A stretch of 64,000 nt of DNA. It comes from Selaginella tamariscina (Eukaryota; Streptophyta; Lycopodiopsida; Selaginellales; Selaginellaceae). The stretch spans positions 750,521 to 814,520 of the forward strand of contig PUQB01000017.1 of the NCBI GenBank assembly GCA_003024785.1. The letters run 5' to 3'. Below the pieces are notes generated by a model. The model ran no database searches, was not told the DNA's origin, and was given only the letters and a program-made list of their open reading frames with translations. Position numbers and translations under genes: made by a program. This document shows positions 22,126 through 61,999 of the stretch, piece after piece. Position 1 is the first letter of the stretch, and every line of letters begins with the position of its first letter.

Positions 22126-22600
22126 ATATAACGTACAGTGTGTTGTATTCTATATATATATTATATATAATGGGAGTTGTGTACACATAAGTGGTACATA
22201 GGTCAAAGGGTGCTTGTAGATGTTCTAAAATAGTTTTAGCTAAACACTAATGATAATAATTATAGAATTTGCGATTAGTTGAATGGGATTTAATTATTTA
22301 TATTTATTTCAAAGTTTAAAAAGGTATTATTCATATTATATTGAAAGAGTTTTAGATTTACATGTATATCTGGGAATTTGAATAAATGTAACAATGTTTA
22401 AATAGCCATAATATAGTACGATTAAATATCATGAATTGCAAACAATTTCAAATTTCTGTTGATTTTTAAAAACTAGTTTTAGTTTTGAATCGCAATAAAT
22501 TTTAAATTCAAGTTTTAGGAGCATATAAAACTTTCAGAGAGGGTATATACAAAGATAGTAAAATACACTACATATTATATTTATATTAAATGAAATACAT
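21290..22600. repeat. Diverged, partly deleted copy of the exon-block unit
   Basis: It aligns with 26460-28740 and 54820-56960: the TGTGTTTATTTAATATTATGTG stretch, exon block A at 21887, and TAATCAGGAGATAGCAAAAT near 22052. A piece including exon block B is missing between about 21990 and 22000 compared with the other copies. Confidence 0.7.
21887..21984 (+). pseudogene. Exon-like block A, copy 1 (unknown gene)
   Basis: An acceptor-like TTGCAG precedes an open stretch whose frame includes INHIMVQNYQQIPNDD and then SYESYGANSQDLD, followed by GT at 21985. The same block occurs at 27253-27350 and 55247-55332 with the frame kept in all three. I do not recognise the protein. Confidence 0.4.
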
Positions 22601-25600
22601 ATACATAATATATTAATAATTGATAACTGAATATTTATACTTTACACGGTATGACAAATTAAACACCCACCACGCTTTACTCTGGCATATCGTATATGCA
22701 TATTTGTATGTACCTGTACATATGCATGTCATGGGCGCAAATATTATAAAACAAAACACTAACACACACACATATAGAGAGAGAGAGATTCTATACATAT
22801 AAGTATAACAAATGAATAATTCATTCATACACAAGTATATATGTATCTGTGTTGTTTGGTATCAGACACATGTGTGTAACACTAGGACAACTAATGTAAT
22901 AAATTTACAGTTATATGCATGTGAATGCAGTCAATATAATAAATCTTATAAAACATTATCCTAGCTTATATAAGAAAATATGAATTTATTCCAGCTATAT
23001 AGTATATAAGTTTTAACTGTTTTAATTTGAAAGATTTAAATATATACCGCTGCCTGCACTCTTTCGTTTGATTCTAAATAATGTTTTATATTCATAGCAT
23101 TTGACATAGTTATATCGAAAAAATCTGAATCATTTCTTGATTTATAGAAGCTGATAATAAAGATAATTAATTACTAACATTAAAATATATATATGGATGT
23201 ATGTATATGTAATCTTGTTATTAATATAAAATTTCCAACATGGTAAAGTTTAATAAGATCTCATTCATATCACTTTTCTATATTATAAACTGGATTTTAA
23301 GTTTACATATTTACTTAAAATTATTTATTAATCTATATATACTTTCAACACATTATTTATTTTACCAAAAAAGAACTAAATATTAGAACTTTAAGTTATT
23401 GAAACTTTAAGATACACTAATCTAACTACTCTAAAACACAATTTTAAATCATTTAGTTTATTCATTATGTTCAACAGTTATCAACTTCACTATAGTTTTA
23501 GTTTTACAATTCGCTCTCTCTCTAATATATATATATATATATATGAAATCAGATAGCAATCAAGTATACACATAATTGTACATATCCATTTTGAAATTAA
23601 AAAAATTATTATACATTCAATTAGCTAGAATAAATTAAAGGCCAGTATGCAGAAATATTGAAATATCAGTTTGAAATACAAGATTAGTAAATAAATGAAT
23701 AATTTTTAAACATTACACAATAATGAGAATAAAAGATTTTAAATTACCAACTAAGATATGCATATTTATTCAGTAATATATTTAAAATAGCTAAATATGT
23801 TTTTCTACTTGTACACATGTACACATCAATCTCTATGTAGCATACATATAAGATGTCTATTTATACATAAAAGAATCTTACATAATACATAAGAAACACA
23901 TTTATTAAGTGGGTGTAAATAATAAGTTTAAAGTTCATAATGAATAAATAAATGTATAAAATGTATAAAATATATATAGATGTTTATACTTGTTTAACAA
24001 AATAATGCTTTGTCTTTGTTTATGTAACATTCATGTAAAGAATTAATATGGACTTTCAAATTTACTAAGTATATACTTAAAAAAATAGTAATGTATTTAT
24101 ATAAATAAATATGCTTTATTTCACCATTATCTTATAAAATGAAAACATTGTTTTATATAGACCCCAATTATACTCGATGTATATAAAACACACATTCAAT
24201 ACATTATTTTTCCTTATAGCATTAATTACATGTTACATTGAGAAGTCAATGTAACATAGTATATTGGAATTTTTAGCAGATATATTTTGCATATATCACC
24301 TATGATTTATTTGAATGTTGAACACACGCACACGTACATATACATACATACATATATATAGCGTGAACAAGGTTAATTAACAAGAATACTATAGTCGATT
24401 GATATATAAATATACTAGAGAGAGAGTCAGAAATGGGTGTAAATATTTAACCAACATTCTTAATGCAAAATGAAAACTAAAAATGTGTGATCTTAGTAGG
24501 ATCTCATTCATATCACTTTCTGTTATAAAATAGATTTTAAGTTTACATATCTATTTAAAACCATTTATTAATCAACTTTATATATGCTTTCACCAAAGAA
24601 CTAAATATATTAGAACTTCAAGTTATTAAACTTTAACATATACTAATCTAACTACTCTAAACACATCCTTAAATCTTTTAGTTTATTCATTATGTTTATA
24701 ATAAAGTTCACTTAGTTCACTTTATAATTTATAATTCCTCTAACCTACTGTGTTAGTAGAGATTGAGGCAGTATAGAAACATCATGTCTTTGTATCTATA
24801 TAAAATAATATCAATATTGATATATAAAGAGATTGTTCACCAACACATGATATGTAAGATGAGCTACTTGTACACACTATACAGCCTAGATAAAATAACA
24901 GTGTTTTAAAAAAAAATAATTATTTATTAATGTTTTAAGTATGTACAGAAGAATGAAGTCAATATTATACCTGGATTGGAAGCGTTCAATATTTGAGTAA
25001 GATATTAAACGTGGTTTGGGTATTGGGATTTAGTAGATAATAAAATGCATGCTATATAGTTAAATTGTTCAAGTTCATTTGTAATTTGAACTGTACATAT
25101 CCATTTTGAGAAATGAAAATAAAAATATTCTACAATCTAGTTAAAAGAAACTGGGGCATGCAGTGGCGCAGAAATATTGAAATATCAGTTTGAAATACAG
25201 GAATCTAATAAATAAATAAATAACTTCTATTTAATATATTAGTATTCTTAATGAAATGTTTTTAAAAGTACTATAATAGTGCACTGTGCACTTATATTGG
25301 AGTATTTAGCAGATATATTTGGCCATGTATCAAATCTACCTTGTAACCTACAGAGAAAATGATTCATTAGTTCATCCTTGTACGGTTAACTAGCTCCGGT
25401 GTAAATCCCATCTCAGGTGCTATACCTACAAAGTCAGAATGCGCGTGCTTGTGTGTGCGTGCGCGTGCGCGTGCGTATGTGTGTGTATAGCGTAGTTTCA
25501 TGAAATGCATGCTTACTCATGCGAACCTTATAATAATTTAGATGTATACGTATTAAAATTGATTACGAACTTAATAAGGTTCACTTGACATTTAATTTGT

Positions 25601-26100
25601 CATTTATATATATATTCCAATTTCTTTAAGGCTCATAATGAATTTTATTTAGAAATTAAAAACTTGTTATGAAATTCCAATGTGTGATAAAAGTTTCAGA
25701 CGGGTTTCTACTGGTTCGTGATAAACAGTTTTAAATTCATGACTATTGCTTATTTTAAATATTTATCTTTATTATAATGAAATTTAAGACTGTGATTATT
25801 ATCATTTGTACATTGAATAAGACATCCATCCTTCATAATTCATTTGACTAATTATTAACTTTTATAAATTCACTAATATTAACTTTTCACTAACTTATTA
25901 ACTTGAGTTAATTCTATAATATGAAAGAAGATCAGTTATAATTTTTAGCATAGATTTACTATTGAGTTATAAATTATTTAATTAAATTATAATAATGTTA
26001 AAATTATTAACTATTAATACGTTTTAGTAAATCTATTATATATTAGTTTAAATATATTATTTGCAATTATGTATTAAATTTTGCTTAGTGTTTAAGAACT
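22600..26100. repeat. Older, rearranged copy of the PPR-tail unit
   Basis: Blocks match the younger units at 40.6-43.5 and 48.6-51.5 kb: the CTTTACTCTGGCATA block at about 22674, the block beginning GTGAACAAGGTTAATTAAC at about 24362, the PPR-tail relic at 25371, and ATGCATGCTTACTCATG near 25506. Similarity is lower and internal order is disturbed, with parts present twice (about 23220-23500 and 24500-24700). Confidence 0.7.
25371..25431 (-). pseudogene. Relic of the last PPR exon, copy 1
   Basis: On the minus strand the tail of the neighbouring PPR gene is recognisable, including the acceptor TTTGTAG followed by GTATAG and the VNRTRMN-coding piece. Internal bases are lost. It lies in the older unit. 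Confidence 0.65.
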
Positions 26101-26607
26101 AGTTAAGAAAATAAATCTTGATTTAAATAATTAATTAATAATTATGAAAAGATTGTTTATTACAGATAAAATAGTTATATGTAATAATAATAAATAATTT
26201 ATTATGAGCAACCAGACTTATATAGCTTAATTGTGCATTCTGTATATGCACGTACACATGAACATACTTTTTGGCAATAAAAATAATACATTTAACATTA
26301 CAAATTTGAATATTATTCTTTTAAGTTTTGCAAATTGAAATATAAAATATAGACATTATTTGAATTTAAGTTTAAAATTCATTATATAAATTAAATTGTT
26401 TTTAGGATACACTGCTTATATATAAAAGTTTCACATTTAGAAATGAATTAATTAATTATATATATGCTTTTTACATGTATGTGTGAATGTGCACAATTAT
26501 GATATTTTAATCAGATTCTGATAGTATGTTAGAGTACATGTACTGTGACCTTGTACATCAAAAAATTTAACATATATATGTACTTAAATATGTATATGTA
26601 TATCAGT

Positions 26608-26663
<56 letters not shown>

Positions 26664-27252
26664 CTGTAAATATTTTATAAAAACATAGGATTAAAATAAA
26701 GTATATTGTCAAATAAGTTTATACTATTTTTTGCCTATTTTAATGATATTTATGTTTTAATAAATAAAATATTTTAATAATACTCTATGCTTAGTTTGGA
26801 TAAAGACGATGAAGTAAGTCAACGGCGTAATTTTATTTTAATTTTAAAATTTGTTTATACAAAAACTAAAATGTACTGTTGATTAAGATAATATTATGAT
26901 TTAAGTTTGTTCAATAGGTATATGTGTGCATGTGTGTTTATTTAATATTATGTGTTAGGATAAGTTTTTGCGCTCACTATTTAATTTTTGTAATAAAATA
27001 TAAACATGTATAATATGCATAACATATAATTGGTGTCTAGGTTATGCTTTACCATTAAAGCTTTAATATAAATACACATATGTGTTATTTTAAATATTTT
27101 ATATATACATAAATAATTTTTAAGAAATAATAATTATATAAAATCAAAACATATCAACATTAATTTAATTTCAGTATATGATAAACACATACATATATTA
27201 TGAATATAATTCAAATACATTGGAACTTCCATTATAGTGCGAAGACGTGAAG

Positions 27253-27350
27253 TATTTATCAATCATATTATGTTTCAGAATCACCAGCAGATTTCAAATG
27301 ATGACAAGGAATCTTATGAATATTACGGCGTAGATTCGCAGAATCTAGAG
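27253..27350 (+). pseudogene. Exon-like block A, copy 2 (unknown gene)
   Basis: An open frame with INHIMFQNHQQISNDDKESY and then YYGVDSQNLE ends at GAG before a GTACAT donor-like site. It belongs to the duplicated unit and is followed 650 bases later by block B. The product is unknown. Confidence 0.4.
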
Positions 27351-28001
27351 GTACATTACCACATGCAGTGATGCATGGTACAAAATATTTAATATATAAT
27401 TTTACTGCTAGTTTTCACACCTCTCTTAATCATAGTTAATTAAATTAATTATTTTAATAATTTAAAAGATATAAATTAAAAAGACCTTCAAGTTAATGCA
27501 TTTCGTCTATACAGTATATATAAGTTTTCTATACAGTATCATTTTTTTTCCTGGTTTTTAATATTTTTTAGCTAATTAAATTTTAATTAAGTATGACTAA
27601 TACAAAAGAAGAGCTGGATTATGAAATCGTTCCCAAATTTACACATCCATATAGACTCAATTAATTGTATAAATACTTCTTTAAATAAAAAAACTTACTT
27701 ATAAGCTGAGCACCACCATCTAAGAACTTAAATATAAATTATATCATAATTAACGTATACTGTATTATAAAACTATATGGTATTTAAAAGTTTAGAGAAT
27801 GTTTAAGTTTGAAAGATATACGGTATATTCCAAGGGATGCCTTCTACATGGCCAAATTATGAACATACGTAAATGTGTTACTAATTTATTTCTGTTTTAG
27901 ACACCCGCTCCGATATTTATGTATTCTTGTATACTATGTATGTATATATATATATTATATATATATATATATATGCAAGACATTTATTGTTTCTCCTATA
28001 G

Positions 28002-28088
28002 CGCAACGAATTTAAGCGTCACCGTAATATAATTATTTCAACTGGAAATTATAAAGCTTATATTTTCTATCTATGTATAATTATTTAG
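28002..28088 (+). pseudogene. Exon-like block B, copy 2 (unknown gene)
   Basis: A strong acceptor (TTTCTCCTATAG) precedes a frame coding RNEFKRHRNIIISTGNYKAY, then a few A/T-rich codons and a stop at 28086. In the sister copy at 55836 the shared 20 codons differ by four changes, all silent. This pattern suggests a real coding exon. Confidence 0.45.
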
Positions 28089-29914
28089 AATTATATGCAA
28101 AACATTTAAATACTAAAATATTTTCTAAACGAGCAAACGTGCGGTGGAAGCTGAACTGAAGAATTTTTAAATTCGGTAATAAATAATAAAATTCTTTATT
28201 ATTATTATTATTATTATTTTAATAAAAAAAGAAGAAGATAGTTTAATCAGGAGATAGCAAAATGGTACACACACACACACATAATGTACAGTGTGTTATA
28301 CACATTATAGATAGATAGATAATGAGTGAAATATATATAGATATATCGAAGGGTGCTTGCATATATCCAAACAGAGAGACGCGTGCTATGTTCTTAAATA
28401 GTTTTAGCTAAACACTAATGTAATTATATTAGTTGACTGGATTTATTTGAAAATTTAAAAAGGTATTATTCATGTTATTTTGAAAGTTTTAAATTTACAT
28501 ATATATTCGGAATTTAAGGAAATGGCAGTAAATGTCACAATTTTTAGATAACTATATTATATACGATTAAATATCATAAATTGCAAACAATTTTAAATTT
28601 CTGTTGATTTTCAGAAACTAATTTTAATTTTGAAGCGCAAAAAATTTTAAATTAAAGTTTCAGGAGTATATAAAACTTTCATAGAGGGGACATACGACGT
28701 TAGTATAATACAATACATATATTATACATAATATATTAACCCCAAGAGTCGCACATTATGAGCAAATATAATTATGCTTTTCAGTTTTTCAGTTTTCTTT
28801 AGTATTTTTTCGTGTCAATTAATATATATCAATAGGGTATAATATTACATTATGAATATCTGCATGGTGATTCTGGATTACAATCTACTTTAAGATCTTG
28901 TGATCTAGGCCGTAAGATTCACGAGATTTTAAGTCGTGACCTGGAATCTGCTCAGTGGTAGAGGACTATACCTTGGACGTATAAATCTCACATTGATACT
29001 GAACATTTTAATAATAAGGTTTATATATATATATTTATATATATATCCAATGCTGTATTTTAGTTGGTTGCCTCATAATTTAAATATTTATGCATCTTTG
29101 TGTACATATAACATATGATTTATTCTATATAGTTAATTAACAAGAATATTATAGTAGATTGATATATAAATACGCACGAGAGAGTCAGAACGGGGTGTAA
29201 TATTAACCAACATTCTTAACCCAAAGTGATAAAAATGTGTGTTTATAGAATATTTACCACAAGATCGTTGTGTGTATCTTGCATATGTACATCTATAAAC
29301 GTAGATTGTATACATACGTCTGCTAGTACCATGCACGCACGGTATGTATAACTACTTATAGAGTAATATTATTATGTCAATATACACAAACGTATGAACA
29401 CATATCACTCGTAATAGTATATAATCCTGATTATTTTCATAAAGTCCAGTTAATACGATGGATATGAATGTTATCAAATATAAATTATTAAACGCTAACC
29501 TAATTTATATAAGATTTAAAATTTAAATGATATCAATCGTTCTTAAAAACAAAAACAAAATTATAAACATGTGCCTTTCAACCAGCAAAACATTACTTTA
29601 CAACATCTTAAGATTAACAAATAAATAACTTCTATTTAACATATTAATATTCTTAATGAAATATTTTAAAACTACTATAAGAGAGCAGTAGTATATTGGA
29701 GTATTTAGAAGATATATTTGACCATCATATATCAACAGTTACATGTATCTGCTACAGAAAAATGATTCTTGCCAACTCCTCTTGTGTCTCATGTACATGC
29801 TTTATTTAAATACACACACTCATTTAACCAATTTACCAGAGTAGTCACCATATGATAACTTTTAAAATATCTTAAACGTATATTCTAAAAAAAATTCTAA
29901 CCAATATATATATA

Positions 29915-30055
29915 TGTAAGATCCACAGGTACGACTGCACGTACACATACTTTTATTATCTAGTGGATTTTGATAGCCGTTCCGTCCAATTGGTTTCAAT
30001 ATGGACCATTCACTTCTATATATAAGTTAAAGTTTTTTAATTAATAAGATATACA
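29915..30055 (+). repeat. 5' LTR of the 29.9-37.1 kb gypsy element
   Basis: It starts TGTAAGATCCACAGGTAC and aligns with the 3' LTR at 36948 (TGTAAGGTCCATGTGTAC), including TATATAAGTTA. The two differ at many positions, which indicates an old insertion. The right end is approximate. Confidence 0.65.
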
Positions 30056-30307
30056 CATTTTTATATTTCAAGCTCTCACGTTGATGCAGGTGAGGGGCAC
30101 CTCTAATTGTTCATACGGAGCACTTGGATTTATGTTTTTTTTAAAGATTTTGTTTGTCTCTTTATATCTAGCTTTTTCATTGTTAAGATCTATTTTTCCT
30201 TGTAGATTTGTGTCCTTTCTTTTTTTTCATACATGGATGCATAACAAGTAAATCCTTGGTTTATAGAGTAACTACTTATGTAGTTATTGGATGTTATGCA
30301 GATGTAA

Positions 30308-31022
30308 TTGAATAATCATTCTCAATTGATAGCGGCATTCACATCCCATGGTACTCCTCCTGCTCATGCTATAAATCCTCGTGTCCGGCTGGATTTCTTT
30401 TGCAAAAGTCTTGGGGATGATGTATATTATCGATTTGACTACTTCACTATGGTTGACGCATATCATTCATGCGACAATGCTCAGTGTTTGCACGAGTTTT
30501 CTACTTGTCTTCAAGGGACAGTGTTGCAATGGTACAATGGTCTGGACATTGGAACTCGTAGAGATTGGAGTATTCTTCTAGATAACTTCAAACGTGCATT
30601 TGAGCATGCAAACGACTGTGACGATGCTTTTCAACATTTGCATCGTATTCATTAGGAACCATCTAAGTTAGTGATGTAGTTCGGTGTTTGCTTTGGGAAC
30701 TTGCTGTGTGCAGAGTGTAACATGTCGAAATGCATCAAGTTAGGTATGTTGTGGCCAGCACTTCGTCAAGACCTTGTGGGGCTTGTGCATGCACTGGCTC
30801 TAGTGACTCTTGACAATGCTTTGAGACTAGCACAACAATATGAGTCATTGCCTCTCCCACTTGCATCTTCACGTTCTCTCATTCCACTTCATGGGGATGG
30901 TCTGCTTGATGGAGGTTGATAATGTAGCTGCTTGTGTACCAGCACAAGGTTAAGCCCGTGGGTAGGGACGTGGACGTGTTCATTGTTGGGCGTGTGATGA
31001 GGTTGGACACACATATCGGTGC
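30308..31022 (+). pseudogene. Gag remnant of the gypsy element
   Basis: A 115-codon frame holds a retrotransposon gag-like core (LQGTVLQWYNGL with a following FKRAFEHA), interrupted at 30653. A second piece continues from about 30701 to 30919. A zinc knuckle C-x2-C-x4-H-x3-C follows at 30984-31022 in another frame and is one residue shorter than the usual H-x4-C. Confidence 0.6.
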
Positions 31023-31749
31023 TATCAACAGTTTTCTGATTGGCGTCCCCCATTTCCAGGGTGGAAGCCATGATGTCAACAATGTCCGGTTGGCATTGCT
31101 ATAGTGGAAGGTCTTGATGTGGTGGATCTTCCGAGAAATGACGAATCACACAAGTATAAGAGGTTCCTCGTGCGAATAAGTTAGTGACCCCTCCGTCTTT
31201 CTTTTAGGAGTATCATCAAGGGTTTCACTTGGCACTAGTTCATCTGGTCTTCACTTTTCAAATTCAATTTAATCACACGACACGTCTTGTTTTCCTTTTA
31301 ATGTTGATGGATACAGGTTCGAATTTGTCCTTTATTTCTCAATATATTGCTACATGTTGTAATCTTCATTTACGTCGTGCGGTAGAACCAGTCTTCATTC
31401 TGTACAGCAACGGACACACTCATGTTAAGTTAACATTGTTATTTGTGTGGACGATCGTGAGCTTGAGCTTCAATCTTTACGGGTGGTGCCAAGTCAAGCT
31501 TTTCACCTTATTCTTGGTATGGATTAGTTGATTCGCAATCATGCCAAGTGTGACTTTGAAAAGTCTCCCCACCGTTTCTCCCTCATTTTTCTTTCATTCT
31601 TCTTATTTCTCTTCCATTTTTATTTCACCCTTACTTTCGACCATCTTCCCTTTATGCTCTTTCTTTCCTCTCTGGATTCCTCAGATGATCGTCATGCTAT
31701 AGTTATTGATTAACTCAAGAAGAAGTATGCTAATCTTTTCAACTTCGAC

Positions 31750-33081
31750 TTGTTATCTGGAGTCAAGATTGTGACATGTTACCCAATTTCAATTGGGGCT
31801 AAGCTTATTAAGGTACTTATTTGGCAATGGTCACCAAAGGAGCTCAAGATCTTACAAGTAAATGTTAAGGAGATGTTGGAAAAGGGTGTTATTGGAAAAT
31901 ATCGAAGTCCTTGGGCGTGCAAACCTTATCTTGTGATGAAGCCGAATGGGAGCGTTTGATTCTACATTGACTATCGCTTATTAAATGATGTAACCATTTC
32001 ATATGTATACCCACTTCCTCATACTGTAGATCTTTTGGATCGACTAGGGCAAAGCCGTTAGTTCACCAAGTTAGATCTTACCTCTGGATATTGGCAAGTT
32101 CCAATGGCTGACATGGACATTCCCAAGACTACTTTTTGAACACCATTTGGCATGTATGAGTTCTTGGTGATGCCTTTTAATTTGTGCAATGCTCTAGTGA
32201 CTTTCCAGCGTATGATGGACGAAGTTCTTTATAATATGCTAGAGGTGATTGTCGACTTCATTGATGATGTTTTAATCCACTCGGATGGAATGTAGGAGGA
32301 GCATGTGGTGATATACACAAGGTTTTAGATCGGTTGCGGGAAGTTGGTTTAAAGCTGAAGCCGTTTAAGTGTGTGTTTGGATCCAAGGATGGATCCAAGG
32401 ACACCACTTACCTTGGCTATCGCATTTCCTGTGAAGGTTTGCAAGTCGATCCTGATAAACTTGTTATAATTTCTATGCCAGATGTGCAACACTTTCTTGG
32501 CAAGGTATATTATTTGGGCCGTTTTGTGAATCATCTTTCAGATCGTATTGCATTGTTGCAGGCATTGCTAAAGTTATCAATGACATCTTTTGTCTTGTCT
32601 AAGGATTGCAAGAAGGTTTTTGCAGATCTTAAAGAGCTGTTGACAACTCTTCCAGTTTTGGTGTACCCTGTTTTTTCATCTTGCGCGTGAATGCTTTTAA
32701 CATCGGTCTCGGGGCGTATTGATGCAGGAGAGTATAAGTGTACCTGGCCAATAACATTCCATTGTGTACATCAGCCGTATGTTGCAACCAATAAAGGTGA
32801 ACTACTTCACGATAGAAAATGAGTGTCTAGCAGTGGTTTGGGGTTTTGAGGGTTCTTGGACGCTGTTAGAAGGCGATCATGCTGCAGTCACTTCATTGTT
32901 GAAGTGGAAGAATTTGATTAGCCGTACTACTCAGTGGGCTTTAAAGCTTTAAATTTACGACTTCGAGGTTGTTCATTGCACAAGGAGTTCCATGATTGAT
33001 GCTAACGCTCTTTCTCGGGCTCCTCTTCCACCTTCTCTCTCTTCTTTTGTCCCTGAGGAGCCAGTTGTTCTAGCATCATGA
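31750..33081 (+). pseudogene. Reverse transcriptase and RNase H remnant
   Basis: Several frames in order give EMLEKGVIGKYRSPWA, then FTKLDLTSGYWQV, the active-site version FIDDV (near 32256), YLGYRIS, and the RNase H part with SRTTQWALKL and ALSRAPLPPS. Stop codons and frame changes separate them. The order and motifs are those of Ty3/gypsy pol. Confidence 0.8.
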
Positions 33082-33212
33082 ATCTAACTTTGCACCTTGT
33101 GGATACTGAATGTCAAGCACAACAACTGCTGATGGTACCGAATCTTTTTCTGCCGTCTTTGGATAAGGTTTGGGAAGTTCAAAAGGTTGAGCTGTGAATT
33201 TGAAGGCTTCGT

Positions 33213-35026: not shown

Positions 35027-35031
35027 TTCGT

Positions 35032-38615: not shown

Positions 38616-38620
<5 letters not shown>

Positions 38621-46171: not shown

Positions 46172-46244
46172 AGCTTGGAAACTGCTCTTCTCTCAAGCAC
46201 TTCATGTAAAGGAAACGTCCTTCTTCAGCAACCTAGTTAACGGA

Positions 46245-48053: not shown

Positions 48054-48261
48054 TGTTAGGCACCACTACGTACAAACTAGAAACCCTCATAAAACCACCT
48101 GACCTCCTCCGAGCTGTCTCTAATCTCCACACACTACTCTTCAAAAGGCTTCCATGTTAAGGTGCCCTTAATTTTCTTAGATCTAGGTATAGCTCTTTAG
48201 GAATATTCTAACTTATACCTTTATGGAGAATATTCTTTGATTCGTTATACGGGTAGTAACA
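48054..48261 (-). repeat. LTR (5' by element orientation)
   Basis: It starts TGTTAGG and ends GTAACA on the plus strand. It differs from the left LTR by roughly a tenth of positions by eye, so the insertion is not recent. Confidence 0.85.
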
Positions 48262-48649: not shown

Positions 48650-49307
48650 CTTTGTGTGCATATAAACTATAATTTATTATATATAGTGTGAACAATGTTA
48701 ATTAACAAGAATATTATAGTAAATTGATATATAAATATACACAAGAGAGAGTCAGAACGGGGTGTAAATATTGACCAACATTCTTAACGCAAAGTGAAAC
48801 TAAAAACGTGTGCGTTTATAGAATATAGTATGAACACATATAGACATACGTATATCACATGTATTAGTACATAATCCTGCTTATTTTCATAAAGTCGAGT
48901 TAATACGATGGATAGAATTTCATTGGCAAATATAAATAATAAAACACTGACCTATGCAGTTTTATATAAGATGTAAAATTTAAATGATATTATATATAGC
49001 TATTAGTCTCCTCAAAGTAATAAGAAAAACTACTAGCCAAAACGTCCGGTCGGTCTTAACAATCTTTTGATCATGTACTTTCTAGATTGTTAATTGATTT
49101 TTCATTTGCCTTCAAATAAAGATAAAGATAATATATAATTGAATATTTTATATTTCTGTCTCATTTATATTTTACACAGTATGCAAATTAAACACCCACC
49201 ACATATTTCATGCTTTACTCTGGCATACCATATTGTATGTACATTCATGCCTCTGTATGGGTGTAAATAGTATAAAACAAAACACTATAACACACACACA
49301 CACACAC

Positions 49308-49343
<36 letters not shown>

Positions 49344-51554
49344 CACGAATTTAATATAATATATGTAACTGTGTTGTTTGGTATCAGACACATAGGTGTG
49401 TAACACTACTATTGCAATATAATAAATTTACAGTTAATATCTCGGAAAATGTAGCTTATATAAGAAAATATGAATTTATTTCAGCTATATTATATATAAG
49501 TTTTAACTGTTTTAATTTTAAAAGCTTTAAACATATACCACTCTACTCCATATCATTAGTCCTTTTGATTTTAAATAATGTTTTCTAAAAAACCTGAATC
49601 ACTTCTTGATTTATGCACGAGCTGACAATAAAGATAACATTAAATATTATATATATATATATATATGAATGAGTTGTGTACCTTTAGGATAAAACAATTA
49701 GAAGTTACACTCATCTTCCAACACAATTGTAATTTATAGGATCTCATTTATATCACTTTCTATATTATAAAATAGATTTTAAGTTTACATATCTATTTAA
49801 AACCATTTATTAATAATCACAAACGACCAACTCTATATATATTTTTAACACATTATTTATTTTTACCAACAAAGAAGTTATTGAAACTTTAAGATACACT
49901 AATCTAACCACTCTAAACACATTCTTAAATCTTTTAGTTTATTCATTTAGTTTACTTTATAGTTTTACAATTCTCTCTCTCCTAAGTTATCCATATATAC
50001 AGTAGTCGAACCCTTCTTCATATTAAGAAAAGAGTTAATCCAACATCTTAATTTAGATATGGGAGGTGCAAGGTGTACATAGTGTGTATATGTGTATGCA
50101 TGTGTGTGGTAGCAGAGATTGAGACAGTATAGAGATATCATGTCTTTGTATCTATACAAAATAATATCTATATTGATATATAAGCAGATTGTTCATCACA
50201 CATGATACGTAAGATGAGCTACTTATAGCCTGTATATAAGAAGAGTTTATTGTTTTTTTTAAACTTTATTTATTAACGTTTTTAAGTATGTATAGAAGAA
50301 TACACTGGAAGCGTTCAATATTTGAGTAAGATATTGAACGTGCTTTGAAATGTCTTAATGAAATGTTTTAAAACTACTATAAGAGAGCAGTTCATCCTTG
50401 TACGGTTAACTGGCTCCGTCTCAATCATCTCATTGTACATCAATAAAGCCTCGCTATACCTACAAATCAGAATGCGCGTGCTTGTGTGTGCGTGCGCGTG
50501 CATCTGTGTGTGTATAGCGTAGTTTTCATGGAATGCATGCTTACTCATGGAACCTTAGATGTATACGGATTAAAATTGAGTATGAACTTAACAAGGTTCA
50601 CTTGACATTTAATTTGTCATTTTATATATATTCCCAATTTCTTTAGGCTCATAATGAATTTTTATTTAAAAATTAAAAATCATTGTGAAATGTGTGTGAT
50701 ACAAATTGCCGACGGGTTTACGATAAACAGTTTTAAATTCATGACTATTTATTTTAAAGACCCATTTTGATTATAATGAATTTTAGATTGTAATTATTAT
50801 CAATTGTACATCAACCGTGTGATTATATTCTTCACTTGAACAGTTATTAACAACTTTTGTAAGTTCAACAATAATAACTTTTCACTAACTTATTAACTTG
50901 AGTTAATTTTATAATCTGAAAGAAGAACTTATGATTTTTAGCATAGATTTATAAAGTTATAGTACTATTTATATATAATATATATTATATACATTATGTC
51001 CACAAGTTTTAAACATAAATATTGATTTAATATCCGTTGTTTAAATGTTTATATATTAATTTTAATATATATTATTTTGCATTATGTATTAAACGTTCTG
51101 CTATTTTACTTAGTGAACATATTAATTCAACTACATGTCTTTTGTATGTACTAATATTTAAACATAATTAATATACCACTGTACTCGATATACAACAAAA
51201 TTGAAATACAAAATGGCAGGATAACTAAATTATATAGATTATTCACGGAACAAAAAAGCCGACGGTCTCTCCTTATAAGGTACAACATACACATGCATGT
51301 TTTTATACATATAAATAAATACCCATCTTCATGCATGCTCGTGTTTGTATATGTGTGTTTTTAATCCTAGATTACATTAGAGGGCAGAAACTAAAAATCC
51401 ATGTGTGTGGTGTGTGTATGTACAGACACATATACATTCACTAATTCTCTTAGGCTTACACACTAAAACAACACACATGTTCTCCCATTCTTCTAATAAT
51501 TAAATACACACATGCATGTGTAGATAGTATTTATAGTGTTGCATACTCTGGAAC
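48650..51554. repeat. PPR-tail unit, copy 3
   Basis: Collinear with copy 2 (40601-43568), nearly identical over long stretches. It ends in a tRNA-Ser relic. Besides the PPR tail it holds no coding sequence. Confidence 0.85.
50389..50464 (-). pseudogene. Relic of the last PPR exon, copy 3
   Basis: The minus strand reads YSEALLMYNEMIET, then PVNRTRMN, and departs from the intact gene at the same point as copy 2. The shared deletion shows that the amplification followed the truncation. Confidence 0.75.
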
Positions 51555-51635
51555 GTCAGCATGTCCGAATGTTTAAGGAGATAGACTTGAAATCTATTGG
51601 GCTTGCCTGCGCAAGTTTAAATCCTGCTGTTGACG
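51555..51635 (+). pseudogene. tRNA-Ser(UGA) pseudogene
   Basis: The acceptor stem and the anticodon loop CTTGAAA are kept. The D loop has lost its GG (GAATGTTTAAGG), and the T arm reads GCAAGTTTAAATCCTGC, so the invariant TTC is gone. Confidence 0.8.
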
Positions 51636-52149
51636 GTTTTCTACATCATAATTAGATCCTTTAGCTTTGTATATATTATGTAGTTTAAATAAGACCTACA
51701 TACAGTTAAACAGTACGTATATACAAATTTCGTGTTTTTTTTATAAAGTTTCTATTGCATTATGTATGTGTATATGTTTGTAACATTAAAAAAGATAAAT
51801 CTAAGTATATATTAAATTTTCTGAAATGCAAAGTTATACCGTCAAGTACAGTATCGAAGTGAATGAATATGATAATTAATAATAAAAGATATACGATAGT
51901 AGTATTCTTTTTTATCACGCCTGTTGTTTTAAAGTGTTTGTATAAGATTGTTTGTTATGCTAATAATTCTTTTCATTTATAATTTTTAGAGTAATATATG
52001 ACATTGAGCTATTGGACTGTGCTTGTGTATACATTTGTATATATATGCGATGTCCAACAAAATAAATCAGTTTAGCATACAAATCAATTTGCACTTGAAT
52101 ATGCAATTTTAACCACTGGATGTCTTTTGAATTAATTATAAACATGAGT
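51636..52149. repeat. Flank behind the tRNA relic, shared with 43960-44090 and 48262-48600
   Basis: CTACATCATAATTAGAT and TAAATAAGACCTAC follow the tRNA in both places. No gene is seen. Confidence 0.7.
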
Positions 52150-54323
52150 AGAACTAGTTAATAAATATTTTTGCATGTTTGTGTCCATATAAACTATAAT
52201 TTATTATATATAATGTGAACAATGTTAATTAACAAGAATATTATAGTAAATTGATATATAATATACACAAACAAAACACTATAACACACACGCTCACAAA
52301 TGCGTGTGTGTGTGTGTGTGCGCGTGTATAAGAGAGAGAGAGATATTTAATATAATATATGTAACTGTGGACACATGGGTGTGTAACACTACTATTGGTA
52401 TTATATGCATACATATTAATATAATAAATTTACAGTTAATATGATGAATCTTATAAAACATGATCCTCGTTTATATAATAAATGTTAGCTTATATAAGAA
52501 AATATGAATTTATTCCAGCTATATTATATATAAGTTTTAATTGTTTTAATTTCGAAAGCCTTAACCATATACCACTCCATATCATTCTTCCCTCTGATTT
52601 TAAATAATGTTTTATAGAAAACGTGAATCAGTTTGATTTATGCACGATCTGATAATAAAGATAACATTAAATATTATATATATTATATATAATCTAGTTT
52701 AGGAGAAAACAATTAGAAGTTGCACTCATCTTCCAACATAATTATAATTTGTAAGATCTCATTTATATCACTTTCTATATTACAAAATAGATTTTAAGTT
52801 TAATATTTATTTAAAACCATTTATTAATAATCACAAAGGACCAACTCTATATATACATTATTTATTTTTACCAACAAAGGATAGAACTTGAAGTTATTGA
52901 AGATACAGTAATCTAACTACTCTAAATTAAATCTTTTTGTTTATTCATTATGTTATAATAAAATTCACTTAGTTTACTTTATAGTTTTACAATTCATATA
53001 CATATTAAGAAAAGAGTTAATCCAACATCTTAATTTAGATATGGAAGGTGTACATAGTGTGTATATGTGTATGCATATGTGTGGTAGTAGAGATTGAGAC
53101 AGTATAGAGATATCATGTCTTTGTATATATACAAAATAATATCTATATTGATATATAAGCAGATTGTTCATCACACATGTTATGTAAGATGAGCTGCTTA
53201 TACACACTATACAGCCTGGATAAAGAGTTTATTATTTTCTAAACTTTATTTATTAACGTTTTTAAGTATGTATAGAAGAACGTAATGGAAGAATGGAAGC
53301 GTTCAATATTTGAGTAAGATATTAAACGTGCTTTGAAATGTCTTAATGAAATGTTTTAAAACTACTATAAGAGAGTAGTTCATCCTTGTACGGATCTCAT
53401 GGTACATCAATAAAGCCTCGCTATACCTACAAAATCAGAATGCGCGTGCTTGTGTGTGTGCGCGTGTGCGTGTGCGTGCGCGTGCGTTTGTGTGTGTATA
53501 GCGTAGTTTCATGGAATGCATGCTTACTCATGTGAACCTTAATAATAATTTAGATGTATACGGATTAAAATTGAGTATGAACTTAACAAGGTTCACTTGA
53601 CATTTAATTTGTCATTTTATATATATTCCCAATTTCTTTAAGTCTCATAATGAATTTTTATTTAAAAATTAAAAATTCATTGTGAAATGTGTGTGATAGA
53701 AGTCGCCGTCGGACGTTTACGGGTTTATGATAAACAGTTTTAAATTCATGACTATTCTTTATTTTAAAGACTCATTTTTATTATAATGAATTTTAGATTG
53801 TGATTATTATCAAGTGTACACTGAATAAGACATCTTGTAAGTTGAACAATATTAACTTTTCACTAACTTATTAACTTGAGTTAATTTTATAATCTAAAGA
53901 AGATCACTTATGATTTTTAGCATAGATTTATAAAGTTATAGTACTATTGAGTTATATTAATTATTTAATTTAATTATAATAAACTATAATACTGAAATTC
54001 TCATTAAAACTATTAACTTTTAGTAAATCTATTATATATTAATTTAAATATATTATTTGCATTATGTATTAAACGTTCGATATACAACAAAATTGAAATA
54101 CAAAATGGCAGAGGTACATACTATGAATACATATAAATAATACCCACACTATGCATGCTCGTTTTATATACTTGTGTTTTTAATCCTAGATTACATAGAG
54201 GGCAGAAAATAAAAAGTATTACACTCCATGTGTGTGCGTGTGTGTATGCACAGACACATATAATACACACCTGCATGTGTAGATAGTATTCACAATGTTT
54301 GTTTTAGTTGTACATTCTGAAAT
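52150..54323. repeat. PPR-tail unit, copy 4 (internally shortened)
   Basis: Same block order as copies 2 and 3 but with several internal deletions, for example directly after GTGAACAATGTTAATTAAC (52216) and in the PPR relic. Confidence 0.8.
53378..53430 (-). pseudogene. Relic of the last PPR exon, copy 4
   Basis: Shorter than copies 2 and 3; about 20 further bases are missing between CTTGTACGG and ATCTCATGG on the plus strand. Confidence 0.65.
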
Positions 54324-54404
54324 GTCAACATGTCCGAGTGGTTAAGGAGATAGACTTGAAATCTATTGGGCTTGCCCGCGCAGGTTCGAACCCTGCTGTT
54401 GACG
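54324..54404 (+). tRNA. tRNA-Ser(UGA), intact
   Basis: The acceptor stem GTCAACA/TGTTGAC pairs fully. The D arm is GAGTGGTTAAGG, the anticodon loop CTTGAAA (anticodon TGA at 54357-54359) sits on a perfect stem (ATAGA/TCTAT), the variable arm is long as in type II tRNAs, and the T arm is GCAGGTTCGAACCCTGC. A TTTT terminator follows within two bases. It decodes UCA. It ends a PPR-tail unit. Confidence 0.92.
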
Positions 54405-55246
54405 GTTTTCTACGTTCATCAACTTACATAGCTTTATATAAAGTATATAGCTAAGTAGAACTAGTTAATAAAATAAATCGTCATTTAGATAATTAGTTAA
54501 TAATTATGAAATGATTTTTTATTACAGATAAAATAGTTATATGTAATAATAATAAATAGTTTATTATGAGCAACCAGACTTATATAGCTTAATTGTGCAT
54601 TCTATATATGCACGTACACATGAACATACTTTTTAGCAATAAAAATAATACATTTAACATTACAAATTTAAATATTATTGTTTAAATTTTATAAATTAAA
54701 AAAATGTAGATATTATTTGAAATTAGCAAGTTTAAAATTATATAAATTAAATTGTTTTTAGGATACATTGCTTATGCATTTAAAAATGAGAATGAATGAA
54801 TGAATGAATTATATATATATATATATATATATGCTTTTACATGTATGTGTGAAATATACGTACTTAATATGTATATGTATACCAGTGTGTGTGTGAGAGA
54901 GAGAGAGAGAGTTTTTATGTAAATGTTTTAAAAATATAGGATTAAAATAAATATATTGTAATATGCTCACTATTTAATTTTTGTAATATAAATATATACA
55001 TGTATAATATGCATAACATATAACTGGTGTGTAGGTTATGCTTTACCATTTAAAGCTTTAATATAAATACACATATGTGTTATTTTAAATATGTTATATA
55101 TACATAAATAACTTTTAAGAAATAATAATTATATAAAATCAAAATATATCGACATTAATATAATTCCAGTATATGATAAATACATACATATATTATGAAT
55201 ATAATTCAAATACAGTGGAATTCCATTATATTGCAAAGACGTGAAG

Positions 55247-55332
55247 TATTTATCAATCATATTATGGTTCAGAATCACCAGCAGATTTATGATGACAAGG
55301 AATCTTATGAATTTTACGGCGTAAATTCGCAG
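55247..55332 (+). pseudogene. Exon-like block A, copy 3 (unknown gene)
   Basis: An open frame with INHIMVQNHQQIYDDKESYE then FYGVNSQ ends before GTACAT. Relative to copy 2 it has lost 3 bases internally and 9 at the end, both in frame. Confidence 0.4.
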
Positions 55333-55835
55333 GTACATTACGCGATGCATGATATAAAATATTTTAATATATAATTTTACGGCTAGTTTTCACACCTTCC
55401 TTAATCATAGTTAATTAGATTAATTATTTAATAATTGTTTTTTGTTTTTAAAGGATATAAATTAAAAAAATCTTCAAAGTTAATGCATTTTGTCTATACA
55501 CGTGATTTAGTATATATAAGTTTTCTTTAAATACATAGTTTTCCTGGTTTTTAATATTTACTAATGAATTAGATTTTAATTAATTACTACTAATATAAAA
55601 AGGAGGCTGAATTGTGAAAGCGTTCTCAAAATTACACATCTATTTACAAGATTTGTATACAAAGAACATTTCTTTAATAAATTAGCTATAGTATAAATTA
55701 TTTATTTTAAACACTTCTTTAAATAAAAAACTTACTTATAACCTGAGCACCACCATTTAAGAACTTTATAATTAACGTATACTGTATTGTATATATATAT
55801 AAATATATACAAGACATTTATTGTTTCTCCTATAG

Positions 55836-55904
55836 CGCAATGAGTTTAAGCGCCACCGTAATATAATCATTTCAACTGGAAATTATAAAGCTTATGTTCT
55901 CTAA
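55836..55904 (+). pseudogene. Exon-like block B, copy 3 (unknown gene)
   Basis: After the acceptor-like CTCCTATAG the frame gives RNEFKRHRNIIISTGNYKAY then VL and a stop at 55902. It differs from copy 2 in the shared codons only at silent positions. Confidence 0.45.
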
Positions 55905-57056
55905 CTATGTATGATTACTTAGAATTATATGCAAAACATTTAAATACTGAAATATTTTCTAAAAGAGCAAACGTGCCTCGAAAGCTGAACTGAGAGAATT
56001 TTTTAATTTTTAAGTCTAATGGGCAACTTTGTTGTAATAAATAATAAAAATCTTGTTATTCTTATTCTTATTATTATTATTATTATTTTAATAAAAAAAA
56101 GAAAGTTCAGTTTTTTGAATTAGATATTTTTAGCTTGAATACGTTTGCCAACGTGTTTCATTCAACTGTAACTATATTATACATATATATATATATATAT
56201 AGAGAAGAGAGAGAGAGAGAGAAGATAGTTTAATCAGGAGATAGCAAAATGGTATATATATACATAATGTACAGTGTGTTATACTCACATTCAATAGATA
56301 GATAATAAGTGAAATATAGGTACATATATCGAAGGGTGCTTGCATATATCCAAATAGAGACGCGTGGTATGTTCTTAGATAGTTTTAACTCACTAGTGAT
56401 AATAATTAATGCACTTTGTAACTAAATGGGCATATATAGTCTCATTTTTTAATAATAGTAGAAATTTTAAATATTTAATTAATATTTTTAATATTAAAAA
56501 AATATTCTTTAGAATAATTTGTGTTTAAAAAAAGATTTAAATATATATTAATTAAAAATTAGAATTTAAGTATTAATTATTATTTTTTTTTTTTAATTTT
56601 CATTTTCATATATCATGCCCATTTTAATTACAACGTTATATTATAATAAGATTAGTTAAATGGATTTTATTCTTTATATTTATTTGAAAGTTTAGAAAGG
56701 TATTATTCATATTATATTGAAAGTTTTAAATTTACATATATATCTCAGAATTTAAGAAAATGGGAGTAAATAACTATATATTATAATTAAATATCATGAA
56801 TTGCAAACAATTTTAAATTTCTGTTGATTTTAAAAAACTAATTTTAATTTTAAATAGCAAGAAATTTTAAATTAAAGCTTTACGAGTATATAAAACTCTG
56901 AGAGAGGGCACATACGACGTTAATAAAATACAATACATATTATATTTATAATAATGAAATACATATATTATACATAATATATTAATCTGTGTATGGTAGT
57001 AAAAACACTATAGATTAATAATTAAATTAGATTTTATTTGATTTATTTGAATGCTG

Positions 57057-57060
<4 letters not shown>

Positions 57061-57101
<41 letters not shown>
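57061..57101. repeat. (TA)n microsatellite
   Basis: About 20 TA units inside the duplicated unit; the corresponding tract in the other copy (29025-29047) is much shorter. Confidence 0.95.
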
Positions 57102-57102
<1 letters not shown>

Positions 57103-59595
57103 CAATGCTGTTGGTTGCCTCATAATTTAATATTTATGGATCTTTGTGTACATATAACATATGATTTATTATAGATAGTGTGAACAATGTTAATTAACAA
57201 GAATATTATAGTAGATTGATATATAAATACACACGAGAGAGAGTCAGAACGGGGTGTTAATATTAACCACAAAGTGAAACTAAACATGCGTGTGTTTATA
57301 GAATATTTACCACAAGATCATGTTGTGTATATCTTGCATATGTACATCTATAAACGTAGATTGTATACATACGTCTGCTAGTACCATGCACGCACGGTAT
57401 GTATAACTACTTATATAAAAAAAAATATATTAATGTTTTTAAGTATGTATAGAAAAATATATTCAAGATTGTACCTCGATTGGAAGCGTTTGACTATTTG
57501 CATAAGATAGTAACATGGTCGGGACTGGAATTCTTGGACTCAGTATTTAAAGTATATGATAAAATGCATGTTATATATTTAAAATTTCAAGTTCATTTTT
57601 AATTTGAGTTGTACAGAAATGAAAATAAAAATATTCAACATCAATTTAGTTAAAAGCAATTCAGGACATGCAGGAAATTTAAAACTATAAGAGAGCAATA
57701 TAATAACTTTTTAAAATATCTTAAACGTATATTCTAGGAATAAAAATTCTAACCAACTAATAAAATATATATTAAACATTACAAAGTGAGAATAAAAGCT
57801 TTTATTACATGTGAATTATTTTATAATTACATTTGCAGTTAAATTACCAACTAGGATATGTATATTTATTCAGCAATAAACTTAAATATTTAAAATACAT
57901 AAGGAACTCACTTATTAAGTAGTTATAAACAATAAGTTTAAACTTTAAAGTTCACTTATAATGTACATAATGATTAAATAAAATATAAAATATATATCAA
58001 TTTTTATACTTAATTAGCAAAATTATGTGTTCTTTTATTTATTTATTTTGTCTTTGTTCATTGTATTTATTGTAACATTCTGAATATGCTTAAAAAAATA
58101 GTAATGTATTTTAAGTTTTACTCACCATTATTAATTAAATAAAGACATTAAAACTATTATATACACCCCAATTATATACTCAATGTATATAAAATACACA
58201 TTCAAGTTTTATGTTTATTTTTCCTATAATTACATTATATACAAATAGAATATTTATATAATATGAATTAATGTTATTGGTTTTAATTAATAACTTGGCA
58301 CTTTGTTAGATAATATATAATTGGTATTCAATATTTAATATGTAAATCAATATAATTTATATAAATTTTATTTACTTAAGCACACAAATCATGTTTATTT
58401 AAACAGCACTTTAATAAACTTATGATAATTAATATGATATAAACATTAATATCAATAATTTTTTCTCCTAATACAAGGTTTTGATTTGGACATACACAGG
58501 ACAATTTACACCTACAACTATTAAGTCTTGTGTACTTTCTTTCCAGAGTCTCTTTTGCTTTCCAATGTAAGATAGTAAATAGGACCCGGACATTTAATAT
58601 TAAATTAGATAGGTTATTAAAGTACATAATTAATTAAATAAACAAGCAAAATTAAGTTAACTAATTAAATGTTAATAAAATTCACGAAGAAAAAAATTGG
58701 GACTGGCTAATTATTAAATTAGGAAGGTTTACTAAAATTTCTTAAGGCCTCAACTAAACATATTAAATTAGACAACATTAAATTAAATAAGTTAAAGCTT
58801 TTCACAAAGGAATGGATCTCATGTAAAATAAGATATTTCTTTTTTAAATTAATAAAGAGAAAACTTAGGAAAGCTGTCTATGTTGTATTGGGGTTGAAAA
58901 AACAAGATAATTATTAAACAGCTCTAAATAAATTAAAGTAAATATTCAATTATTTAATAAAGAACTTCAAATTATTGTGGTTATATGCCTTACTAAGGAA
59001 TAGTTGAAATTTAGTAAACTATGTATATTGGTCTATAGGTCTAACCATTTACCAACAATATGCATATATATTTTATATTAATAAAAAATCTTTATTAAAC
59101 TCTTTTTATAAATATATGTATGCATATATTATTACATAACATTTCATTATTAATATGCATAACTTGTACATGTGTGTGTGTGCGTGCGCGCGCGCTTGTG
59201 TTTGTATATACATACGCATGTATAAACTACTTGATTAAGTTTCTTTATATACATGTGTAAGATATTATATATGCACATATATGTATGAATAAAAACCGTA
59301 TAAGAGTGTTTAATTATAGGTTTGTTTGTTTAAAGAATAAAATTATGCTAAGTATAACAAACACATACAAATATAATGGTTTACCTTTGTAAATATATAC
59401 ATATATATAAATATATGCATATATAACTATATTATTTGATATATTCATGGTTCAAAATATATACGTGTAGGCATAAGTAGATATATATATGTTAATGTCC
59501 ATCTCAATTCTACGTAATATATTGTATATTACTTGACATATGATATGTTGTGTGTGTGTATATGTGTGTTAACTGTTATGTGAGTGGTTAATATT

Positions 59596-59598
<3 letters not shown>

Positions 59599-59657
<59 letters not shown>
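59599..59657. repeat. Compound (TC)n(TA)n microsatellite
   Basis: A run of TC units is followed directly by TA units. It is absent from the paralogous position near 38337, where only GCTCTACACAC is found. Confidence 0.95.
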
Positions 59658-59935
59658 CATTCTGTGCATAACGTTGTTTATTGTAGATAAAAACATATAT
59701 ACGGCATGCTTGGGTGTGTTTATAGTTTTGAAACGAAACATTCTTGACTTAAGCATTGAATTAAATCAACTTATTTACCCTTAAATAAATCAAAATATCA
59801 AAACTGATTGATAAATTTAATACTTTATAAAATAATTAAAGTAATTAATCTGAAGTTTTTTAAATATTATTTAATTAATTAATATTTAAAATGTCAGATT
59901 AATGGGGAATAAAACAGTTATTAGTTGTAACAAGA

Positions 59936-61649
59936 ATATTATAGTAAATTGATATATAAATATACACGAGAGAGTCAGAACGGGGTGTAAATATTAACCA
60001 ACATTAACGCAAAGTGAAACTAAAAAGTGTGCGTTTATAGAATATAGAATATTTACCACAAGATCATGTATGAACACATACAGAGATATGTATATCACAC
60101 GTATTAATACATAATCCTGATTATTTTCATAAAATCGAGTTAATACGATGGATATGAATGTCATTGGCAAATATAAATTATAAAACACTAACCTATGCAG
60201 TTTTATATAAGATGTTGCTTTACTCTGGCATACTGTATATGCATATTCTATGTACATCCATGCCTCTGCATGGGCGTAAATATTATAAAACAAAACACAC
60301 ACACATACACACACACATATATATAAGAGAGACATATTTAATACAATATACCTAACTGTGTTGTTTGGTATCAAACACATAGGTGTGTAACACTACTATT
60401 GGTATTATATGCATACATATTAATATAAATAAATTTTTGGTTAATACGATGAATCTTATAAAACATTATCCTCGTGTATATAAGAAAATGTAGCTTAAAG
60501 AAAATATGAATTTATTCCAGCTATATTATATATAAGTTTTAACTGTTTTAATTTTGAAAACTTTAAACATATACCACTCGATATTATTCTTCGCTTTGAT
60601 TTTAAACAATGTTTTATAGAAACCCTGAATCACTTCTTGATAATATATATATATATATATATATAATCTAGTGTGGAATGAGTTGTGTACCTTTAAGAAA
60701 AAACAATCAGAAGTTACACATCTTCCAACACAATTATAATTTGTAAGATCTCATTTATATCACTTTCTATATTATAAAATAGATTTTAAGTTTACATATT
60801 TATTTAAAACCAGGACCAACTCTATATACTATTTATTTTTACCAACAAAGAATAGAACTTGGAAGTTATTGAAACTTTAAGATACACAAGGTGTGTGCAT
60901 GGGCACGCAAGGTGTACATAGTGTGTATACGTGTGTGTTAGTAGAGATTGAGACAGTATAGAGATATCATGTCTTTGTATCTATACAGATGAATATCTGT
61001 ATTGATATATAAGCAGATTGTTCATCACACATGATATGTAAGATGAGCTACTTATACACACTATACAGCCTGGATAAAAGAAGAGTTTATTATTTTTTAA
61101 AAAACTTTATTTATTAAGTATGTATAGAAGAATGTATTGGAAGCGTTTGAGCTGTACAACATATCCATTTTAAAAAAAAAAAAAATAAAAAAGAATTCTA
61201 CATCAATCTAGTTAAAGAAACCTATCGCATACATCCATCCAGGGGACAAATATTAAAATATCAGTTTGAAATACATTAACATATTAGTATTCTCAATTAA
61301 ATGTTTTAAAATTACTATAGGAGAGCAGTTAATGTAACATAGCATACTGGAGTATTTACCAGACATATTTGGCCTGCCTTGTAAGCTACAGACGAAACGA
61401 TTCTTGATATAATATATGTGTGTGGGCATGTGTATGTAATTATACTTTGCTGTGTAGATATAACACAATCCACAGTACTAAATGAAGCATTATATATTAT
61501 GTATAATGTGAAAATATATATATGCATGCCCAATGTTTCTATGGCTAAAAATAACAAATATATATGGATAAATAACAGATATAGATAATATATCTTCTCT
61601 CTCGTACGCACAACAAACACACACACACGTACAATAGAAAAAGGCCGTA

Positions 61650-61729
<80 letters not shown>

Positions 61730-61791
61730 CTATGATATTTCTATCTCATCTATATTTTACAGGACAATATAATTAAAATACCAACAATATG
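59936..61791. repeat. PPR-tail unit next to the intact PPR gene (3' flank)
   Basis: The same block order as in the other units (the tail end of the GTTAATTAAC block, CTTTACTCTGGCATA at 60215, ATTGAGACAGTATAGAGATA at 60948) leads here into the real last exon at 61975-61792. This is therefore the probable source arrangement of the amplified units. A (TA)n tract lies at 61655-61728. Confidence 0.8.
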
Positions 61792-61999
61792 CTATGTACT
61801 TCCCTCTAGCAGGTTATCTGTACGCTGACGTGCTTTATCCGAGGTGCTTGCAAAGTACGGACGAGCCGGAGGAGGGCAGTTCATCCTTGTGCGATTAACT
61901 AGCTCGGACAACTGCCTCTCCGGTGTAAATCCCATCTCAATCATCTCATGGTACATCAATAAAGCCTCATTATACCTACAAAATGAGATTGTAGGTGCT

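Follow-up and report, generated by a model that had tools for sequence, protein, structure and literature searches.

How does a genome come to hold several copies of one end of a gene and none of the rest of it? This question is raised by a 64,000-nucleotide stretch of a Selaginella tamariscina contig (the window; its contig is called C471 below, and all comparisons were made within this one genome). From ~20.8 to 62.0 kb, the window carries a direct-repeat array of five units, four of which close with a relic of the last exon of a pentatricopeptide repeat (PPR) gene, PPR1. A tRNA-Ser(UGA) sequence lies in three of the units. We concluded that the array very probably arose by a partial tandem segmental duplication with its breakpoint in the terminal intron of PPR1 and that the copies were later exchanged and eroded.

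The array consists of five direct units

We aligned the span from 20.0 to 62.1 kb with itself and scored matches (high-scoring segment pairs, HSPs) at E<=1e-10. As controls we used first-order Markov shuffles of the span and two same-sized stretches of the contig. We found 105 HSPs, 101 of them direct and 4 inverted. All 10 of 10 shuffles gave 0 HSPs. The upstream control stretch gave 9 HSPs, and the stretch at 90 to 132 kb (window-scale coordinates continued beyond the window) gave 135 because a second array sits there. The array in the window is real, and its self-alignment confirmed the claim of the initial annotation that at least five collinear units are present. When we used 51700-62050 as the query (E<=1e-8), neither the upstream 50 kb nor the downstream 80 kb held a unit; there was one 104-bp match, at 101.6 kb.

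The initial annotation had also described an order of short blocks common to all units. GTTAATTAAC occurs six times in the array and CTTTACTCTGGCATA four times (22675, 41040, 49213, and 60218). The exact GTTAATTAAC is absent from the unit at 59.9 kb and the exact CTTTACT motif from that at 52.2 kb, but both units contain the homologous blocks. Similarity to PPR1 stops in a (TG)n tract near 62017, and in all four relics the same sequence, block X, follows; we therefore cut the array there, which gives five units. After this re-phasing, the order is block X, tRNA-Ser(UGA) or its former place, a spacer, the last exon, and the (TG)n tract of the last intron.

We cut the units at the junction between relic and X and took the best ordered HSP chain of each outer unit against U1 (8549 bases). 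U1 (53469-62017; 8.55 kb), the putative parent unit, contains X, the tRNA, the spacer, the 3' downstream region, and the last exon of PPR1 and ends in (TG)n. U2 (50501-53468) is short and closes with relic D; its chain has 9 HSPs and 82.3% identity to U1, with 170 bp of off-chain matches. U3 (42374-50500; relic C) has a chain of 11 HSPs at 81.3% identity and 448 bp off chain. The spacer is mostly gone from both. U4 (25468-42373; relic B) gave a chain of 18 HSPs at 79.8% identity that reaches nearly across the whole of U1 (53479-62011), with 1033 bp off chain. The outermost unit, U5 (20800-25467; relic A), is scrambled, with a chain of 11 HSPs at 73.7% identity and 1417 bp off chain; short inverted segments lie at its left end. 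Neither the chains to U1 nor the tRNA search detected X or a tRNA in U5.

Two units contain foreign sequence. U4 is split by a chain-free stretch of ~7.2 kb (29905-37089, plus strand) that has retroelement-like open reading frames (ORFs) and collinear unit sequence on both sides, and it looks like a retroelement insertion; no Pfam domain was found in the 3 ORFs tested from it. U3 holds retroelement fragments (44910-47690, minus strand) with the Pfam domains RVT_1 and RT_RNaseH (reverse transcriptase and RNase H), which we read as Gypsy type.

The relics share one junction in the last intron of PPR1

PPR1 lies on the minus strand (61795-64000 in the window) and runs on to ~65.1 kb beyond it, with about nine exons by our reading. 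It matches PPR_2 (E=1.5e-43) and PPR_1, and we read it as P class. Its last exon (61795-61979) is joined to the gene. The relics each consist of this exon with an intron stub, in the same orientation as PPR1 (all minus strand): A at approximately 25369-25467, B at 42262-42373, C at 50383-50500, and D at approximately 53384-53468. Thus the earlier statement that one unit alone is attached to a real PPR gene was upheld, the other four being relics, with the reservation that the PPR1 exon at 62.94 to 63.15 kb (62936-63150) contains a frame change. PPR1 itself may therefore be damaged or a pseudogene, or the frame change may be an assembly error.

We aligned the relics with MAFFT and compared them with the gene by pairwise BLAST. 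The duplicated part ends in the (TG)9(AG)11 tract of the last intron (62000-62039). The junction is identical in relics A to D: a TG-rich tract and then TGTATAGCGTAG. Block X, which comes next in all four relics, was not found at the matching place in PPR1.

At their other end, the relics had been said to stop at the same codon. This holds roughly: in all four, similarity to the exon ends at or beside the RTRMN codons because the 3' part of the exon is deleted, a gap of ~470 bp in the comparison with the gene. The far endpoints of the deletion differ. By our reading of the alignment, relics A, B, and C have a common 15-nt difference from PPR1; B and C lack a further 12 nt; and the larger loss in D overlaps these two differences.

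A short repeat at both ends of the ~470 bp prompted us to consider an insertion into the 3' end of PPR1 instead of a deletion in the relics. This reading is disfavored, as part of the sequence that the insertion would have brought persists in relic A. The copies aligned near 61400 had no sharp element boundary.

Block X and the PPR tail differ in their distribution in the genome

We searched the genome with unit C (49202-51730; 56 matches) and with 61792-64000 (119 matches), and scored the best 40 of 249 and the best 40 of 218 candidates, respectively. The PPR-tail part of the unit C query (positions 1-1299) matched C471 only among the best 40 of 249 candidates. With the second query, the last-exon sequence likewise matched C471 only, at relics B, C, and D, with relic A not among the best 40 of 218; the remaining matches in that set were mostly simple repeats, with short exon matches on C838, C627, and C479. 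The relics could have aligned better to another PPR gene; in both scored sets, the DNA-level matches to the last exon were on C471 alone, which agrees with descent from PPR1.

Block X has a wider distribution. In U1, it occupies 53495-54111, and it recurs after relics A, B, and C. Among the best 40 of 249 candidates, C114 and C1159 carry relatives of X and of the tRNA region, with no PPR tail among the matches there, and C838 carries one short piece of X. Two short matches start at the junction base itself, 53495: one on C114 (L035; 32 bp, E=5.5e-4) and one on C1159 (L043; 21 bp, E=0.004). At a further place on C114 (L042), matches to X start at 53540. Because outside matches start at 53495, we suggest that two old sequences were joined at the TG tract; the matches that point to this are weak.

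Relatives of X, of the tRNA region, or of both lie at L042 (C114:12001-21000), L043 (C1159:453001-461000), L034 to L039, and L041. Those at L042 are flanked by inverted repeats of ~94 bp, and an ORF that we read as F-box-like lies nearby.

Plant Helitrons capture gene pieces, including introns. A transposon of this kind could have picked up the tail of PPR1 together with the tRNA and then accumulated locally, and the presence of X and the tRNA region on further contigs is consistent with such a capture. It is nevertheless improbable, as the tail block matched C471 only among the 40 of 249 candidates scored and the units stand head to tail, joined to the parental gene at a constant junction.

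The body of PPR1 is absent from the array

The gene body and 5' flank of PPR1 (62060-69000) gave just five matches to the array, all simple repeats of 27 to 47 bp. In tblastn searches with eight PPR1 exon peptides (E<=1, at most 60 HSPs each), we found only the last-exon relics in the array.

These results bear on a whole-gene tandem duplication of PPR1 in which the bodies were later lost and the tails left. PPR1 has three further PPR loci within 25 kb, and restorer-of-fertility-like (RFL) genes cluster with close relatives, as stated in the passages cited here of a study of barley (PMC7380019), both of which would fit such a history. In contrast, all four relics have one breakpoint and the same downstream sequence, and beyond simple repeats no other PPR1 exon or 5' flank was found in the array by the searches above. 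We rejected whole-gene duplication followed by decay, to which we give a very low probability.

What we found instead is a partial tandem duplication in its parts. The copies are adjacent, direct, and collinear with a segment that holds one end of a gene, with U2, U3, and U5 collinear in part; one constant junction between the segment ends is present in relics A to D; and PPR1 is joined beyond the breakpoint, while the rest of the gene is missing from the copies. We favor this explanation because the gene body and 5' flank have only simple-repeat matches in the array and the tail block was found on C471 alone among the candidates scored.

Only one tRNA-Ser(UGA) copy is well formed

We called tRNAs with ARAGORN at its default and relaxed thresholds and with the Rfam cut-off. 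The tRNA-Ser(UGA) in U1 (54323-54405, plus strand) is well formed (60.8 bits, default threshold), and its positions 2 to 82 are identical to tRNAs on C1337 and C527 (a genome search with 41 matches, 3 of them on C471). The copy at 51554-51636 (plus strand) is decayed, was called only at the relaxed threshold (49.9 bits), and equals the C1337 stretch at 74 of 83 aligned positions. The copy at 43877-43960 (plus strand; 47.2 bits, default threshold) is also decayed and equals the C1337 stretch at 76 of 83. Two T-arm changes are common to both decayed copies, and all three copies are above the Rfam cut-off. No tRNA was detected in U5 or in U4 between X and the spacer. The three places named in the initial annotation were thus found, with a well-formed tRNA at 54323-54405 alone. 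This is not a tandem tRNA gene array in the sense of several functional-looking copies.

The tRNA of U3 was split by a 290-bp insertion (43589-43878). Exact 19-bp repeats of tRNA sequence (43570-43588 and 43879-43897) flank it, as a target-primed insertion would leave them. On contigs C604 and C1337, several tRNA-Ser copies occur, in places ~1.7 to 1.9 kb apart, and look like separate clusters.

Sequence was exchanged between the units

We built trees of the copies by block. In the tree of X, A falls outside D and the pair of B and C. In the c-block tree, B groups with C, and in the tree of the GTTAATTAAC block, C groups with D. We also counted the sites that support each pair along an alignment of B, C, and D. 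The closest pair is B-C at B 41824-41974 (29 sites versus 0 and 1), B-D at B 42939-43084 (30 sites versus 1 and 0), and C-D at the GTTAATTAAC block (14 sites versus 3 and 1). This switching of the closest pair along the alignment indicates exchange between units. The suggestion of later unequal exchange is borne out by this mosaic, and the tree of the units, run by blocks, differs in topology between X, the c block, and the GTTAATTAAC block.

A duplication ending in the last intron would explain both the tail and the tRNA

The ancestral order would have been X, tRNA-Ser, several kilobases of spacer, the 3' downstream region, the last exon, the last intron, and the rest of PPR1. A tandem duplication with its right breakpoint at ~62017, in the (TG)n tract of the last intron, and its left breakpoint near 53495 (U1 coordinates), where X starts, would bring these two points together. 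The gene would stay whole, with the intron-truncated copy placed beyond its 3' end, on the outer side, and with X and the tRNA coming after that copy. We favor unequal crossing-over over replication slippage as the process that would have raised the copy number to five and mixed the copies. Deletions, retroelement insertions, and the 290-bp insertion would have eroded them. The four other units would thus be outward tandem copies of U1.

U1 is best read as the parent unit because the junction is common to the relics and one tRNA is well formed; it has the sole well-formed tRNA and the sole exon joined to the gene. That the well-formed tRNA should lie in the unit with the joined exon is what this reading predicts.

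The initial annotation had proposed that one truncation seeded the array and that unequal exchange followed. We agree that the tail alone was amplified, that one junction is common to the relics, and that the units are mosaic. The truncated seed gene is unneeded, since an ordinary tandem duplication of the segment between a point beyond the tRNA and a point in the last intron keeps the gene intact and places truncated copies outside it. The same event argues against a distinct pattern with the tRNA as partner: the tRNA would have been amplified as a passenger because it is the 3' neighbor within the duplicated segment.

Several points weigh against this explanation. The evidence comes from one genome, and the chain method selects ordered matches by construction. 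Unit lengths are very uneven (3 to 17 kb), and the chains of U2, U3, U4, and U5 cover just 1956, 2277, 5538, and 1997 bases of U1, which has 8549. Since U5 is scrambled and lacks X and the tRNA, the original left border is unreadable. The left breakpoint is placed by outside matches that are short and weak, and the orientation of the tRNA segment relative to X is reversed on C114 and C1159. The 3' deletion ends near 61403 in relic A and near 61330 in relics B to D. Finally, the c-block tree and the m-block tree each leave two inner forks open.

The array copies are most likely functionless, and the sole candidates for function are the tRNA of the putative parent unit and PPR1. It is scarcely credible that the relics were retained as regulatory RNA (a small interfering RNA source or a decoy) acting on PPR1: the part of a review used here (PMC3449122) names Makorin1-p1 as a partial duplicate for which a regulatory role has been proposed, and the relics keep PPR1's own intron-exon boundary, but the relics found share the orientation of the gene and so would form no hairpin among themselves, their deletions differ, and their coverage is at most ~34 codons.

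A mirrored array lies at the opposite end of the PPR cluster

PPR1 (61.8 to 65.1 kb, minus strand) is the first of four PPR loci, followed by those at 69.0 to 71.8 kb (plus), 72.9 to 74.4 kb (minus), and 83.3 to 87.7 kb (minus; PPR4). The second array lies at 94 to 138 kb (C471, ~844.6 to 888.6 kb; L017 to L020) and is made from the first exon of PPR4 and its 5' flank. We found six first-exon relics, at 97.8, 102.2, 107.3, 111.8, 116.7, and 131.5 kb; each breaks off ~75 bp past the start of intron 1 (87258-87263). With the cut taken as the start, each of the six units could be chained in order to 87258-97770 by 3 to 6 HSPs, which account for 1343 to 3060 bp of that segment. The gene body gave just five matches to this array, of 25 to 44 bp. 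The breakpoint comes directly after a TG-rich stretch; that it falls within a pure microsatellite is not evident. Apart from the 104-bp match noted above, the search with 51700-62050 showed no likeness between the two arrays. By its structure, the first-exon array of PPR4 is the mirror of the tail array of PPR1 and follows the same logic.

Between PPR4 and its array (~89.6 to 93.7 kb; L017), there are long ORFs that look to us like a Gypsy-type retroelement. Three similar short ORFs (IVIRNIQP...) at ~128.2, 132.1, and 136.2 kb (L018 to L020) are possibly relics of another gene. Elsewhere in the window, 3323-3900 and 5631-6209 are 94% identical copies with a B3 domain on the minus strand, which is another local duplication.

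Relation to known systems

The mechanism is ordinary, as both a partial duplication with an intron breakpoint and RFL remnants attributed to unequal crossing-over are already in print, as far as the cited passages go (PMC3449122, PMC7380019). Katju (2012), in the part of the review cited here, described a partial gene duplication with its breakpoint in an intron (PMC3449122). The likeness is close: the copy holds one gene end with flank and a partial intron, and the other paralogue is whole. Unlike that case, the array here is made of the 3' end, is tandem, has five units, and includes a tRNA gene inside the unit. In the RFL regions of barley, the cited passages report 29 short PPR remnants besides long genes, and the authors invoke unequal crossing-over (PMC7380019). 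The remnants are likewise partial PPR copies, but those passages do not state one common breakpoint or an ordered array. By our reading, PPR1 has the P-class repeats expected of an RFL locus, and it has many introns; we compared it with RFL genes for their remnants and do not presume that it belongs to them.

In Arabidopsis, the Pro and Tyr-Tyr-Ser arrays are tandemly duplicated tRNA genes, according to the passages cited (PMC12652284). The tRNA-Ser here was likewise multiplied by local tandem duplication; in contrast to those arrays as described there, just one of three copies is well formed, and most of the unit is DNA other than tRNA. According to the cited parts of a plant pseudogene survey, spikes of pseudogene density are tandem-duplicated stretches, and no clear link was seen between tandem or proximal pseudogenes and the fragmented type (PMC7935947). 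The spikes resemble our case, yet gene-end arrays like the present one are not shown to be common in those parts. The sea urchin Sp185/333 cluster, an unstable gene cluster, combines short tandem repeats with segmental duplications, as in our locus, and differs in consisting of animal immune genes (PMC5103432, passages cited). In a literature search of titles and the beginnings of abstracts, we found no such array or mirrored pair in a PPR cluster, which is no proof of absence. What is new is the mirror case at PPR4, at the opposite end of the local PPR cluster.

A tandem duplication with its breakpoint in a terminal intron produces arrayed relics of one gene end, which look like selective amplification of the tail. 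With a mirrored array ~32 kb away, the idea that intron repeats set the breakpoints in PPR clusters becomes testable. We put forward, as a speculation that we ourselves think rather unlikely, that repeat-rich introns of intron-rich PPR genes serve as repeated breakpoints and that both outermost genes of a PPR cluster shed arrays of terminal exons outward, 3' tails on one side and 5' heads on the other. If this is true, PPR clusters would have a recurrent way of both eroding and growing from their margins.

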